Shown: positions 3,406 to 36,676 of the stretch, in pieces | Position numbering within the stretch: position 1 is the stretch's first letter | How the letters are laid out: each line of letters opens with the position of its first letter | From: Synergistaceae bacterium | GTDB lineage: Bacteria > Synergistota > Synergistia > Synergistales > Aminobacteriaceae | Assembly (NCBI GenBank): GCA_017450125.1 | Contig: JAFSWZ010000034.1 | Location: 62,001-126,000 of the forward strand | Length of the DNA stretch: 64,000 nt | Direction: 5' to 3' | Translations under genes and position numbers: made by a program | The notes under the pieces: model-generated | The model's database searches: none | What the model saw: only the letters and a program-made list of their open reading frames with translations | Told to the model about the DNA's origin: nothing

Positions 3406-5280
3406 ATGATATTCATAGTTATCGGTGTAATCGTAGCTGTCGCGGTTGGGGCATTCCTGCGGCAGCAATCCAGACAGTCAGCGCAGACCACTCCGACTGA
3501 GGAGTCTCATCCTCCGTTCGGGCAGATAGACATTCCTGCGGTTGAGGTCTCTGATGAAGATGAAGGCTACACGCTCACGGCCAAGCCCGTAACCTCGCCG
3601 GAGCTTGCGTCGGGAGCAACGTACTCATCACACGCACCTGCTGGGGAAGAGTCGCCTTACGGACGTTCCAGCGAGCCGAGAAAGCAGGCACAGCCCGCCG
3701 CGAATCTTCTCAGGTGGTGCGGGAGGACGGGCATCATCCAGCTCGAGAACTTCGCCGTTCCCAACCCCGTAGCGTACTGGTCGAACGGAGACCCCGCAAC
3801 TCAGGAGCCCTCGTGCATTGACGTAACGCTTCCAGTGCTCTTCCCGCAGCCCGGCGAACAGTTACCGGCGGAAGGTGCTGCATCGTACGCGGAGATGTCG
3901 CCTATGCAGAGAGGAATCTATCTCACGTGGCTTTCCGGCGCGCGCATACAGCCCCCGTTGCACATGTGCTACCCTGCGCTGTGGCTTTACGGCATCGAGA
4001 GACGTACAATCGTCGACAAACTAGACCTGCCGATGTGTATAAGCGAGTCGTTCAGGCTTCTTCCGTTACTGCGGTGGGACGCGCTCAAGGACAAGCTGAT
4101 AACGTTCATCACATGGCTCGCGGTCAAGGTGTGGCTTCCTGATGAAGACCTGCTGGGCTTCTGCAGAAGACTTAACTCCGTGCCTGAAGGACTGCTCGAC
4201 ATCCTAATGAACTCCTACGCAAACTCAATGCTTCCCCTTCCGTCAGCAGTTGCCTTCACGATAATACGAACTTCCGCAAAACTTCACAGGGAGGATGAAC
4301 CAGTAATCCCCCATTCCGACGAAGACTTAAAGACTTTCACGCCGATCTACAAGGACTTGTGCAACGGCGGACTTGTGCTGATAAAGCCTGAAGAGATGCT
4401 CAGGCTCAACTACACTCCCTCCAACCCGTCAATAGAGCTCAGCGACAAGGACAAAGAGCCGGTAGAGATTCCCGACTTCTTCAGCAACCTTGCGCCGTTC
4501 AAGCCGCTTGTTGATGCGTGGGAAGTTTTCCTGACGGCCAAGAAGCAGGAACAGCCCGTGCCGGACTTGTCCGACATTGCGGAACGCCCGGACTTCGAGG
4601 GATTCATCAAGAGCCTGCGCCCTGAAGGCAGCGACATTCCGTTAATCACGAACCTTGAGGCACTCGGAAAACTTATGAAGTTCGACACGTCTCCGGGCAC
4701 GAAGCTGAGCGGCAAGGAGAGAAAGTCTGTCGTGGACACCGCGCAGGTTGAGGGCTGGCAGATTGTGCCGGACTTAGGGGTCTCGGGGAGAAACTACAAC
4801 TGGCAGGACAGAATACTCTTCCTCGAACTTGCGCCGGGTACTCTTCTGCCTCACAGCTACCGTGTCGCGTCGTTTATGCTGGAGTTCATATGCGCGTCGA
4901 TTGCGGCGGATGAAGACAGAGTGTTTGAGCCCCTCCGGCAGAGGATGAATGAATTTTTCCCGCTGAGCGAGGACGACAACATACGGCTTGAGGCACAGAA
5001 GCCGCTGAACCTTCCGACGCAATACGGGCCGGAGTTCTACGGGGAGTTTCTGTGTTCGTGGCTGTCCGAGAAGGAGCGCAAGGCCGTGCGGAATCTCGCG
5101 CTTGATGCCGTGAGCCTGCTGACCGGCTACGGCGGAAATCCTGAGGTCAACTCGATACTGTGCGAGGTTCTCGGCCTTCGGGAGGACGAGGAGATTCCCG
5201 AAAAAGACCTGAAGAAGTCCCCGAAGGACAAGGGAGCAGAAGTCATGAAGATGATGGCGTTACTGTTCAAGAACGGATAA
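3406..5280 (+). CDS. TerB-N domain membrane-anchored protein
   Basis: The 624-residue protein opens with one membrane segment (IFIVIGVIVAVAVGAFL), then a Pro/Ser-rich linker to about residue 95, then a TerB-N-like domain. Its marks are NPVAYWSNGDP, PSCIDVTLPV, MSPMQRGIYLTWLSGAR and LWLYGIERR. The long C-terminal part (about 330-624) fits the alpha-helical TerB/TerB-C region usually found with TerB-N. TerB modules occur in tellurite-resistance and stress or defence contexts; the biochemical role is unknown. The gene follows the DUF2156 gene by 18 bases, and its last 21 bases overlap the convergent glycosyltransferase gene. Confidence 0.75.
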   Translation: MIFIVIGVIVAVAVGAFLRQQSRQSAQTTPTEESHPPFGQIDIPAVEVSDEDEGYTLTAKPVTSPELASGATYSSHAPAGEESPYGRSSEPRKQAQPAANLLRWCGRTGIIQLENFAVPNPVAYWSNGDPATQEPSCIDVTLPVLFPQPGEQLPAEGAASYAEMSPMQRGIYLTWLSGARIQPPLHMCYPALWLYGIERRTIVDKLDLPMCISESFRLLPLLRWDALKDKLITFITWLAVKVWLPDEDLLGFCRRLNSVPEGLLDILMNSYANSMLPLPSAVAFTIIRTSAKLHREDEPVIPHSDEDLKTFTPIYKDLCNGGLVLIKPEEMLRLNYTPSNPSIELSDKDKEPVEIPDFFSNLAPFKPLVDAWEVFLTAKKQEQPVPDLSDIAERPDFEGFIKSLRPEGSDIPLITNLEALGKLMKFDTSPGTKLSGKERKSVVDTAQVEGWQIVPDLGVSGRNYNWQDRILFLELAPGTLLPHSYRVASFMLEFICASIAADEDRVFEPLRQRMNEFFPLSEDDNIRLEAQKPLNLPTQYGPEFYGEFLCSWLSEKERKAVRNLALDAVSLLTGYGGNPEVNSILCEVLGLREDEEIPEKDLKKSPKDKGAEVMKMMALLFKNG

Positions 5281-28992: not shown

Positions 28993-29076
28993 AACACACA
29001 AGGGAGGGCAGAGCAGAAATGTAACGTCCTCCTTGTGATATACTTGTGCAAAATCCATAAAAGGAGGCTTGACAAA

Positions 29077-30689
29077 ATGGAATTTATCCCCATAATTGAC
29101 ACGACACGACCGTTGTTGCTGTCTCTGATGGCGAAGATAACTACCTAGATGCCCTCAACACCGCTTCAGGGAAGTATATTTACTTCACCAGCAGCAAGTC
29201 CATCCTCGAACCACAAGCAATAGAGATCCTACAATCCCTCTCCGAACAGAATAACCTCGACGTACTGTGCTTCAACTCCGGGCTGTTGTACGGGAAAGAC
29301 CGCACAGAGATTCCCGACTTCTGGCTGGCCGTCGGCATGTACCCTGACGTTCTGCCGGGCCAAGAACTTCTCGGGCAGTTACTCAGCAACAACGACTACA
29401 AAGCACTCTTGCCGTTGTACTTCTACAGGACAGACTTCCTCAGGCAGAACAGACAGGCCTTCAGGGATGGAGAACCCTTCACGTCCGAAGCTCTGCGCAA
29501 AGCTGAACGCGCAATGCACATCCCCGCCGTGCTGTGTTACTGCAGGGTGCGGAAGGGAATGCTCCTGCGTTACGGGCGGAATTACCTGCTGTACCGTCAT
29601 CCCGTGCTCAAAGAAGCTCTGAGGAACTGCTACAAACCGCTGAAGAGAGCTGTACGCCGACTGCACCCAAAACTCGACGACGAATGCAGAAGCATAATCA
29701 GCACCCTCAAGGACACAAACAAGCCGGGCATCAGCCGCATTATCACTCTCAACGTTCCCAGATACGGCAACAGAGGCGACATCGCCATAGCACTTGCAGA
29801 GCGTAGGCTCTTCAACGAACACTGCAGAGACCGCCTCCTCATAGAATTGCCGTTCGACCTGTGCGATGATTATCCGCATCTCATAATTCCTCACATCAAC
29901 AGCAGGGATATTCTCATGACTGTAGGCGGAGGCTGGTACGGCAGCTTCTGGAGAAACGCAGAGATGACAGCTCTGAATATCCTCCGGCACTTCCCTAATA
30001 ACAGGGTAATCATAATGCCGCAGACGATTTATTACTTCGACAGTGCGCAGGGTAGGAAGGAGCTTGCCGATGACAGAAAGTCTTTCGCGAGGTTCAAGGA
30101 TCTTCACGTATTTGTGCGGGACAGAAAGTCCTTTGAGATGATACATAGCACAAATCTTTTCCCGAATGCACAGAGTGTTGACCTCGTGCCGGACATGGCC
30201 TGCTCTATGGACTTCACGAACCTTGCTCCCGAAAAACGTGAGGGCGTGCTGGTGTGCCTTCGCCCCGACGTTGAGCAGGTACTCACTAACCATGAACGCA
30301 ACACGCTCTGTGTCCGTCTGCTCCGCGAGTTCGGGCACGTCGGGTTCTTCTCGACGAATCCTGTCCGCAGTACGGTCATGCTCAGCGAGTGGGAGAAAGT
30401 GCTGGATGAGACACTGCGAATGATCGCAGGTGCTGAGCTCGTCATCACTGACAGGCTTCACGGAATGCTTTTCGCGGCAATCACCGGGACTCCGTGCGTG
30501 GCGTTCGACAACAAGACCGGGAAGGTGCACAGCGTCCACGAGTGGATTTCCGGCTGTGAGTATGTCCAAGTGTGCAGGTCAGCTGAGGAGTTCGACGGTG
30601 CGGTGAAGAAAGCCCTCTCCTCTCCGCGAAAGTGGGACAACTCGGAGCTTCTGCCGTATTTCAACAAAATACTATCACTCATCTCATAG
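29077..30689 (+). CDS. Degenerate GT2 / polysaccharide pyruvyl transferase fusion, frame shifted near its start
   Basis: The long reading frame is open from about 29111 to 30689; the first ATG in it is 29286. Upstream, ATG 29077 with AAAGGAGG starts MEFIPIIDT in another frame, and removing one GACAC unit at 29098-29110 joins the two cleanly (then TVVAVSDGEDNYLDAL). The N-terminal part resembles a GT2 glycosyltransferase (ALNTASGKYIYF), but the metal-binding DxD position reads SSKS, and the usual first donor-binding strands are missing. From about residue 190 on it is a pyruvyl transferase (NRGDIAIALAERRLF, VGGGWYGSFWRN, VITDRLHGMLFAAITGTPCV). It likely decorates a surface glycan with pyruvate ketals. 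As sequenced it is off, or uses an internal start. Confidence 0.75.
29098..29110 (+). repeat. GACAC tandem duplication shifting the frame
   Basis: GACAC GACAC GAC. One unit fewer puts ATG 29077 in frame with the pyruvyl-transferase gene; the present two units do not. Confidence 0.8.
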
Positions 30690-34543: not shown

Positions 34544-35650
34544 TCACCTTTCTACTTGCTTGGAGGCTTCCTCGAGTGCGCGGGCTATAACTTCGTCCAT
34601 GTTGTAATACCTGTACTCGCCTAATCTTCCCCCGAAGATGACTCCTTCCTCGCGCGAAGCAAGCTCCTTGTAGCGTTCGTAGAGTGCCTGATTCTTTGCG
34701 TCGTTGACGGGGTAATACGGTTCGTCGCCCTGCTTCCACGTGCTGCTGTACTCCCTCGTTATGACCGTGCCCCTGCATTCGCTGAACGTGAAGTGCTTGT
34801 GCTCGATTATGCGCGTGTAGGGAGTTTCTGCGTCCGTGAAGTTCATGATGGCGATTCCCTGATAGTTGTCGATGTCGGGGAGTGTCTCTGTCTCGAACCG
34901 AAGGCTTCTGTACTCGAGAGTTCCGAGCGAAAACCCGAAATACTCATCTACCGGCCCGGTGTAGACCACACGTCCGGCCAAGTTTCTGAGTTCATCCCTG
35001 TGCTCGAGGTAATCCGTCCCAAGCCTGACTTCGATTCCGTCAAGCAGACGCTCGAACATTGCCGTATAACCGTCTGACGGGATTCCCTGATACGGGTCGT
35101 TGAAGTAGTTGTTGTCGTACCTGAACCTCACGGGAAGCCTCCTGATGATGAACGCAGGAAGTTCCGTGCACGGCCTGCCCCACTGCTTCTGCGTGTAGCC
35201 CTTGATCAGGCGTTCGTAGATGTCCCGCCCGACAAGGCTTATTGCCTGCTCCTCGAGGTTGGAGGGTTCGCGGCCTGAGAGTTCTGCGCGCTGGCGGGCG
35301 ATTTCTGCCTGTGCTTCGGCAGGAGTTATCACGCCCCACATCTGGTGAAACGTGTTCATGTTGAAGGGAAGGTTGTAGAGCTGCCCCTTGTAGTTCGCGA
35401 CCGGCTCTGTGCGGAAATGGTTGAACTCCGTGAAACGCGAGGCGTAATCCCAGACAGCTTTTCGCGCCGTGTGGAAGATGTGAGGGCCGTACTCGTGAAC
35501 CTGAATCTCTCCGGCACTGCGGGTGTATGCGTTTCCGCCGATGTGGCTTCGCTTGTCGATTACGAGGCACCTGCGGCCTGCGTCCGTCATCTGACGTGCG
35601 AAGACCGCGCCGAAGAATCCTGCCCCTACGATGAGATAGTCATACTTCAA
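34544..35650 (-). CDS. glf: UDP-galactopyranose mutase
   Basis: 368 residues, the usual size. The FAD-binding start YDYLIVGAGFFGAVFARQM precedes VIDKRSHIGGNAYT, NLPFNMNTFHQMWGV, ETLPDIDNYQGIA, and the C-terminal Arg/Tyr active-site region YEYPVNDAKN-like YYPVNDAKNQALYE. It makes UDP-galactofuranose for surface polysaccharides. It lies one base after the sugar phosphotransferase stop, so both are in one transcript. Confidence 0.96.
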   Translation of the reverse strand: MKYDYLIVGAGFFGAVFARQMTDAGRRCLVIDKRSHIGGNAYTRSAGEIQVHEYGPHIFHTARKAVWDYASRFTEFNHFRTEPVANYKGQLYNLPFNMNTFHQMWGVITPAEAQAEIARQRAELSGREPSNLEEQAISLVGRDIYERLIKGYTQKQWGRPCTELPAFIIRRLPVRFRYDNNYFNDPYQGIPSDGYTAMFERLLDGIEVRLGTDYLEHRDELRNLAGRVVYTGPVDEYFGFSLGTLEYRSLRFETETLPDIDNYQGIAIMNFTDAETPYTRIIEHKHFTFSECRGTVITREYSSTWKQGDEPYYPVNDAKNQALYERYKELASREEGVIFGGRLGEYRYYNMDEVIARALEEASKQVER

Positions 35651-35651
35651 A

Positions 35652-36407
35652 TCAATATGCTCCTTCTCCCCTGAATACTACGGGAATAGTCTTCAAGATA
35701 AGTTTGATGTCTTCAAGTATGCTCATATTCTCGATATAGTCAAGATCCATTTCTATCCACTGCGCCCATTTCACGTCCGCCCTGCCGCTCACCTGCCAGT
35801 AACACGTCAAGCCCGGCGTAACCAGCCATCGCTGTTTGTCGTAGTCGTCTATGCTGTCTGTGCCGACGGTCATGATTGCGCGCGGCCCTACAACAGACAT
35901 ATCGCCCACAAAGATATTCCAGAGCTGGGGGAGTTCATCGATGCTCCACTTCCTGATGAAGTGTCCTACACGTGTGATTCGGGGGTCATTCTTGATCTTG
36001 AAGGCGTGGCCGGTCATCTCGGAGTCTTTCAGCAGTTCGTTAATCATTGCTTCGGCGTTCACTCTCATTGAACGGAACTTGTGCATACGGAAATTTCTCA
36101 TGTCTTTTCCCCAGCGGTCGGCGGAGTAGAACACCGGCCCTCCGTCCTCGAGCTTTATCGCAATTGCCGTAGCAATGAACACCGGCGACAGCACCACGAG
36201 CGCGAGCCCCGACGACAGGATGTCAAACAGCCTCTTCAGCGCAAGATAGAGCCTGCTCTTCCGCGCGAGCACTGCCCTCATGTTGTAGCGGTAATCCTTC
36301 CTCAGCGAGGTATCTGTTTCTCCTGAGGGGCCTTCTGCGGCAAATGCTGCCTTTGCTCTGAAGACGCTAAAAAACTTACGGACTAAGGATGGAAGGTTAT
36401 TCATCAT
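35652..36407 (-). CDS. Undecaprenyl-phosphate sugar phosphotransferase (WbaP/WcaJ family, catalytic core)
   Basis: 251 residues from ATG 36407, four bases after GGAGG; a second ATG follows at once. One membrane segment (LFDILSSGLALVVLSPVFIA) precedes the catalytic domain: DGGPVFYSADRWGKDMRNF, MHKFRSMRVNAEAM, DPRITRVGHFIRKWSIDELP, WNIFVGDMSVVGPRAI and PGLTCYWQVSGR. It transfers a sugar 1-phosphate to undecaprenyl phosphate and starts polysaccharide synthesis. It lacks the N-terminal multi-helix part of WcaJ. The open frame extends upstream through a 7-base repeat array, but the promoter lies there, so that part is leader. Confidence 0.9.
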   Translation of the reverse strand: MMNNLPSLVRKFFSVFRAKAAFAAEGPSGETDTSLRKDYRYNMRAVLARKSRLYLALKRLFDILSSGLALVVLSPVFIATAIAIKLEDGGPVFYSADRWGKDMRNFRMHKFRSMRVNAEAMINELLKDSEMTGHAFKIKNDPRITRVGHFIRKWSIDELPQLWNIFVGDMSVVGPRAIMTVGTDSIDDYDKQRWLVTPGLTCYWQVSGRADVKWAQWIEMDLDYIENMSILEDIKLILKTIPVVFRGEGAY

Positions 36408-36450
36408 GCTTCCTCCTGCTTGAGAGGAGAAGTGAGGACATAGAGAAGGC

Positions 36451-36500
36451 GACACGCGACACGCGACACGCGACACGCGACACGCGACACGCGACACGCG
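36451..36500 (-). repeat. Heptanucleotide tandem repeat (GACACGC, about 7 copies) in the leader of the sugar phosphotransferase
   Basis: Seven full copies plus one base of GACACGC (GCGTGTC on the coding strand) run directly after the -10 box of a strong promoter, 44 bases upstream of the start codon. Copies are exact. A change in copy number alters the initial transcribed region and leader length. Confidence 0.95.
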
Positions 36501-36529
36501 ATTATACATAGGTGATGCCATTGCGTCAA
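36501..36529 (-). promoter_or_regulatory. Near-consensus sigma-70 promoter of the sugar phosphotransferase-glf transcript
   Basis: On the minus strand TTGACG (36529-36524) and TATAAT (36506-36501) are 17 bases apart. The start site would fall inside the heptanucleotide array. Confidence 0.85.
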
Positions 36530-36676
36530 GCTCCTTTGCACAAAAGATTTTGTTAGTTGTTGGGGTATTATAGCATTGAGGGTACAGGCCGTGAAAATTT
36601 AGGGTATAATCAACTTCACGAACAATACACATAAAATCTCACACACTTATTATCTTTCGGAGGAGGAAATTTATTG

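Follow-up and report, generated by a model that had tools for sequence, protein, structure and literature searches.

The window analysed here, a stretch of 64,000 nucleotides of Synergistaceae DNA, carries on its minus strand a gene for a glycan-initiating sugar transferase, with glf, encoding UDP-galactopyranose mutase, as the next gene (Table 1). Ahead of the sugar transferase the minus strand reads, in order, AAAGGAG-C-TTGACG-N17-TATAAT, followed by a perfect GCGTGTC repeat 53 bases long (period 7 and 7.6 copies, with a TRF score of 106 and a match of 100%). The initial annotation had recognised the near-consensus promoter, the array lying directly after it and the succession of a glycan-initiating gene and glf, and the sequence and the Pfam matches bear out each of these. 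It had overlooked an extended -10 element further upstream (TGCTATAAT, P1 in Table 1, the embedded promoter being P2), a Shine-Dalgarno (SD)-like AAAGGAG, and an ATG located between the -35 and the -10, which at the present copy number is in frame with the sugar transferase right through the array. Elsewhere in the window the best perfect period-7 repeats reach just 2.1-2.3 copies, against 7.6 here; a trimer of the unit is absent elsewhere in the genome of origin (2.16 Mb searched), and nothing in Rfam matched.

Table 1. Features of the two array loci in the window
Feature	Coordinates	Strand	Basis
P1, extended -10 promoter element TGCTATAAT, upstream of the SD	36567-36575	-	sequence
AAAGGAG, SD-like, for the array reading frame	36531-36537	-	sequence
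P2 -35 element TTGACG	36524-36529	-	sequence
ATG, start codon of the array reading frame, within the promoter spacer	36519-36521	-	sequence
P2 -10 element TATAAT, 17 nt from the -35	36501-36506	-	sequence
Heptanucleotide array (GCGTGTC)x7.6, stop-free in three sense frames	36449-36501	-	
Second SD AGGAGGA, for the sugar transferase	36411-36417	-	sequence
Glycan-initiating sugar transferase (starts ATG 36407/36404)	35652-36407	-	Bac_transf PF02397, E 2e-65
glf, UDP-galactopyranose mutase, next gene	34544-35650	-	PF03275, E 1e-84
Second cassette: TGATATACT, SD AAAGGAGG, TTGACA, ATG 29077, CATAAT, (GACAC)x2.6	29036-29112	+	
Polysaccharide pyruvyl transferase, fused to the second array	29100-30689	+	PF04230

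The idea that the array is unique to this locus was rejected, since similar cassettes recur across the genus. A protein search covered 43 species (one genome per species, all draft metagenome assemblies; those relatives that bear a name are MAGs of goat rumen Synergistaceae). It identified ten close sugar transferase orthologs, and in seven of them an array of a different unit lies at the equivalent place, right after TTGACA-N17/18-TATAAT (CTGGTCG x7.1, TCATC x4.8, TCACA x5.4 and x5.8, CCACA x4.6 and x7.4, CCACG x4.8). In L019 the array is present and the -10 is degenerate. Scanning the genus with the pattern AAAGG-TTGAC-N-TA...T returned sites in 38 of the 43 genomes, with a maximum of 19 per genome, the reversed control usually giving 0-2, and other genera of the family, judged by counts of the pattern alone, yielded background counts only. 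An array sits at the -10 in 119 of the 133 distinct genus sites, whereas only one of 62 motif sites on viral contigs has a short repeat, and the linkage of promoter and array is therefore not a matter of chance. The viral count also led to the rejection of phage-borne cassettes. The same association emerges when arrays are sought by unit alone (GACCA and CGCACAT), independently of the promoter: TTGACA matches at five or more of six positions at the expected place in all 47 arrays with upstream sequence and perfectly in 39 (shuffles, 0.25), and an SD-like sequence lies upstream of all 47.

The union of these sets comprises 191 distinct cassettes, confined to one gut/rumen genus of the Synergistaceae, with at least 24 read in the genome of origin, two of them in the window. 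Their anatomy combines an RBS (usually GAAAGGA) with the promoter TTGACA-N16-18-TATAAT, in which a start codon is embedded, and with an array of 5- or 7-nt units at the -10. The families linked to them are sugar transferases, MBOAT and other acyltransferases, GT2 and GT4 enzymes, LicD, pyruvyl transferases and methyltransferases. On this sequence evidence it is highly probable that the window array belongs to a phase-variation cassette that is reused in front of glycan genes throughout the genus. Variants of the arrangement include L453, in which (CA)n, the sole period-2 array, occupies the equivalent position behind a weaker promoter, and two neighbouring paralogous glycosyltransferases on L040 that have cassettes of their own, CGAACGC x10 and CGCGACA x14 (3459-3529 and 4711-4809).

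Several features of the family point to translation through the arrays. The periods are non-triplet in all 191 cassettes (7 in 106, 5 in 80, 4 in three, and 2 and 8 in one each), and 3, 6 and 9 never occur. Among 64 distinct units a sense-strand stop codon is found in one, the other 63 being stop-free in every sense frame; the antisense strand has stops in 16 of the 64, and shuffled units have stops in seven on average, just 11 of 5000 trials giving one such unit or none. An ATG lies in the -35/-10 spacer at 94 of 115 sites (36.7 when shuffled), the remainder offering TTG or GTG. Across the genus, then, a start lies upstream of a repeat that is open in all frames, and since SD and start codon precede the arrays these are not untranslated repeats of the hmw type.

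The sequence downstream of the arrays follows one of two plans. At roughly 43 of 96 sites the repeat continues into a long gene, which as a rule has no suitable start beyond the array; in this arrangement (class A) the array is fused to a gene with no other start, encoding a GT2 or GT4 enzyme, an acyltransferase, a pyruvyl transferase or others. About half of the loci instead have a leader reading frame after the array and a gene with its own start (class B), and in 43 of 53 of these exactly one frame stops at the start codon of the gene and two stop early. Shuffled class B leaders show this pattern 7.5 times on average and at most 15 times in 500 shuffles. The ON frame ends most often at +4 (ATGA), and also at +1, +7 and +11. 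One frame is thus ON and two are OFF genus-wide, in those 43 class B leaders and in class A. Pairing of the SD/-35 region with a conserved motif that follows the array was considered and rejected, the hairpins of true pairs averaging -12.1 kcal/mol and those of shuffled pairs -12.2; the motif is better read as the stop codons that close two frames. Taken together, the stop-free units, the upstream start, the non-triplet periods and the single frame that reaches the gene argue that the arrays are translational frame switches.

In such a switch, ribosomes would load at the upstream SD, initiate at the ATG that lies between TTGACA and TATAAT, and translate across the stop-free array of 4-, 5- or 7-nt units. 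Slippage would add or remove a unit and so shift the frame that follows the array. In class A one frame in three would carry the ribosome into the fused gene, and in class B one frame in three would end on the start codon of the gene, where translational coupling would presumably effect the handover; in the remaining two frames a stop shortly past the array would leave the gene OFF, with a probable consequence for the glycan. The initial annotation had pointed out that seven is not a multiple of three and that coding use of the open frame upstream, if any, would flip as well; this holds good and proves central to the whole family. About one state in three is expected to be ON, and the present states are compatible with this, 23 of 87 loci being ON (13 of 43 in class B, 10 of 44 in class A) and 64 OFF. 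Some points sit less comfortably with a frame switch. The upstream P1 is recognisable in only 73 of 115 sites, although shuffles give 2.75, and the choice of start codon is ambiguous at some sites, where it is TTG or GTG, or an ATG 13-16 nt from the SD. Transcripts from P2, if made, lack the start codon of the array, and the frame model has no need of them.

The window locus itself departs from the pattern of one ON and two OFF frames. In its present frame the leader is fused to the sugar transferase, giving a protein of 289 aa from ATG 36521, and with one unit more or less the leader frame stops 11 or 4 nt past the ATG of the gene. All three frames therefore reach the gene, and a full OFF state is not predicted. 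In the ortholog L011 two frames stop 54 and 40 nt ahead of the gene, and these early stops have been lost from the window leader. The window protein also lacks an N-terminal membrane region of about 110 residues that is present in most orthologs (L011, L012, L015, L017, L018 and L020). The window locus is therefore probably a locked-on or graded member of the family, not a strict ON/OFF switch. Since its leader is open in three frames, the array may here exert the effect on the transcript leader that the initial annotation proposed. To judge from its sequence, the second cassette of the window resembles an ordinary class A switch that is set to OFF: the pyruvyl transferase is at present out of frame with ATG 29077, and the loss of one unit or the gain of two would open it.

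A translational switch does not itself account for P2, yet the consensus promoter that adjoins the array is part of the cassette. Indeed, it is the most rigid part, with a spacer s.d. of 0.64 nt, and its -10, counted from the start codon, falls in each of the three frames. One explanation is that P2 raises the mutability of the array and not the expression of the gene, with RNA polymerase at the array edge stalling replication or exposing single strands and so provoking slippage. In class A, P2 transcripts would be untranslatable from the cassette start, which fits such a role. A search by upstream -10, SD and TTGAC, with no second -10 required, found that -10 and array go together (both at 42 sites, -10 only at nine, array only at four, neither at eight; Fisher p=0.0016). 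In addition, the array-less orthologs L013, L014 and L016 retain the upstream TATAAT (P1) and AAAGGA, and the -10 by the former array position is lost or degenerate, although in some cases a single deletion could have taken array and -10 together. This role for P2 is unlikely on balance but deserves attention, and the same modest chance attaches to the broader proposal that the promoter abutting every array is a dedicated hypermutability element within a localised mutator, serving to make the array slip and not to produce mRNA, and present as dozens of modules in the genus.

A further alternative, rather improbable, concerns class B, in which an OFF-frame leader left untranslated might fold into a terminator hairpin whereas translation in the ON frame would block termination. 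Terminator-like hairpins are found in 10 of 51 class B leaders (3.2 in shuffles), those of the sugar transferase orthologs L012, L015, L018 and L020 included, but most class B leaders, the window's among them, have none. These four orthologs and L021 share a conserved hairpin of this type, ACGTTCGC...GCGGACGTTTTTT, between array and sugar transferase. Where such hairpins occur, a ribosome translating the ON frame may also keep transcription from terminating.

The initial annotation had favoured transcription, with a start inside the array and copy number altering leader length, structure or start-site spacing; in the fuller form of this model P2 drives the gene and stability may be tuned as well. 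The rigid, near-consensus P2 would suit this, as would the strong SD (AGGAGGA) of the window gene and its lack of an OFF frame, and in hmw1A a repeat of 7-nt units acts in this way (PMC8262952). It leaves unexplained, however, the stop-free sense units, the absence of periods 3, 6 and 9, the start codons in the spacer and the fused genes without a downstream start. As the main mechanism it is not supported by the genus-wide comparison, in which the arrays appear to be translated and in many relatives lie inside coding sequence with no later start, and it is now very unlikely. That the repeats are neutral or an assembly artefact is scarcely credible, even though every genome is a draft metagenome assembly, because the same anatomy with differing units recurs across most of the 43 species and the stop and frame statistics lie far from those of shuffles.

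For the translational switch to operate the arrays must change in copy number, and the support for this is indirect. At 15 of the 133 sites a contig ends less than 70 nt away on the array side, and at none on the other side, a likeness to the contig breaks reported at phase-variable tracts of the SSR type (PMC4235727). Tetranucleotide TTGC arrays of the genome of origin lie on two contigs that break inside the array (L469 1-125 and L478 1-140). The copy-number differences observed lie between species and between paralogs (for example 5.6 against 7.6, in adjacent paralogs), none being seen within a strain or species in this set of one genome per species, and recent near-identical pairs that differ in copy number are few and weak.

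Repeat-driven phase variation is known mostly from a few host-adapted pathogens, and its translational SSR form is exemplified by the tetranucleotides of H. influenzae lic, lgt and mod and by the CTCTT pentamer of Neisseria opa. The cassettes resemble these systems in that surface-glycan genes carry, close to their 5' end, a repeat whose unit is not a multiple of three. They differ in that one standard start cassette is reused at dozens of loci per genome, with 64 different units, mostly of 5 or 7 nt, and an adjoining consensus promoter; half of the loci have a leader frame that ends on the start codon of the gene, and the hosts are uncultured commensal Synergistota. Leader-peptide coupling and attenuation likewise involve a leader frame that overlaps the start codon of the gene (ATGA, TAATG), and in some cases terminators, but in the cassettes the frame is set by a variable array and not by a metabolite or drug. 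Heptameric repeats are known in cyanobacteria. These and the TAACTGA repeats of Beggiatoaceae (PMC4679880) share with the cassettes the large number of heptamer arrays per genome, but consist of one or a few units in intergenic DNA, whereas in the cassettes the unit is free and the position is fixed by the start cassette. The heptanucleotide promoter repeats of H. influenzae hmw1A and hmw2A are untranslated and act by transcript level (PMC8262952); the 7-nt cassettes are similar in lying directly downstream of a predicted promoter and in the change to the 5' leader that this would bring, but their units are stop-free and placed after a start codon. No report of phase variation in Synergistaceae or Synergistota was found among the open-licence papers searched, and the cassette family is apparently undescribed so far.

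An uncultured genus of gut and rumen Synergistota thus seems to place its surface-glycan genes under the control of a standard switch module, present in dozens of copies per genome, in which the sequence of the unit is free and position, frame logic and promoter are fixed. The arrays explain contig breaks in these genomes, and their ON and OFF states can be read from metagenomes. As a natural collection, the cassettes could serve to study the origin and spread of contingency loci and what sets a unit length of 5 or 7, and they also allow the question of whether a promoter beside a repeat affects the rate at which that repeat mutates.
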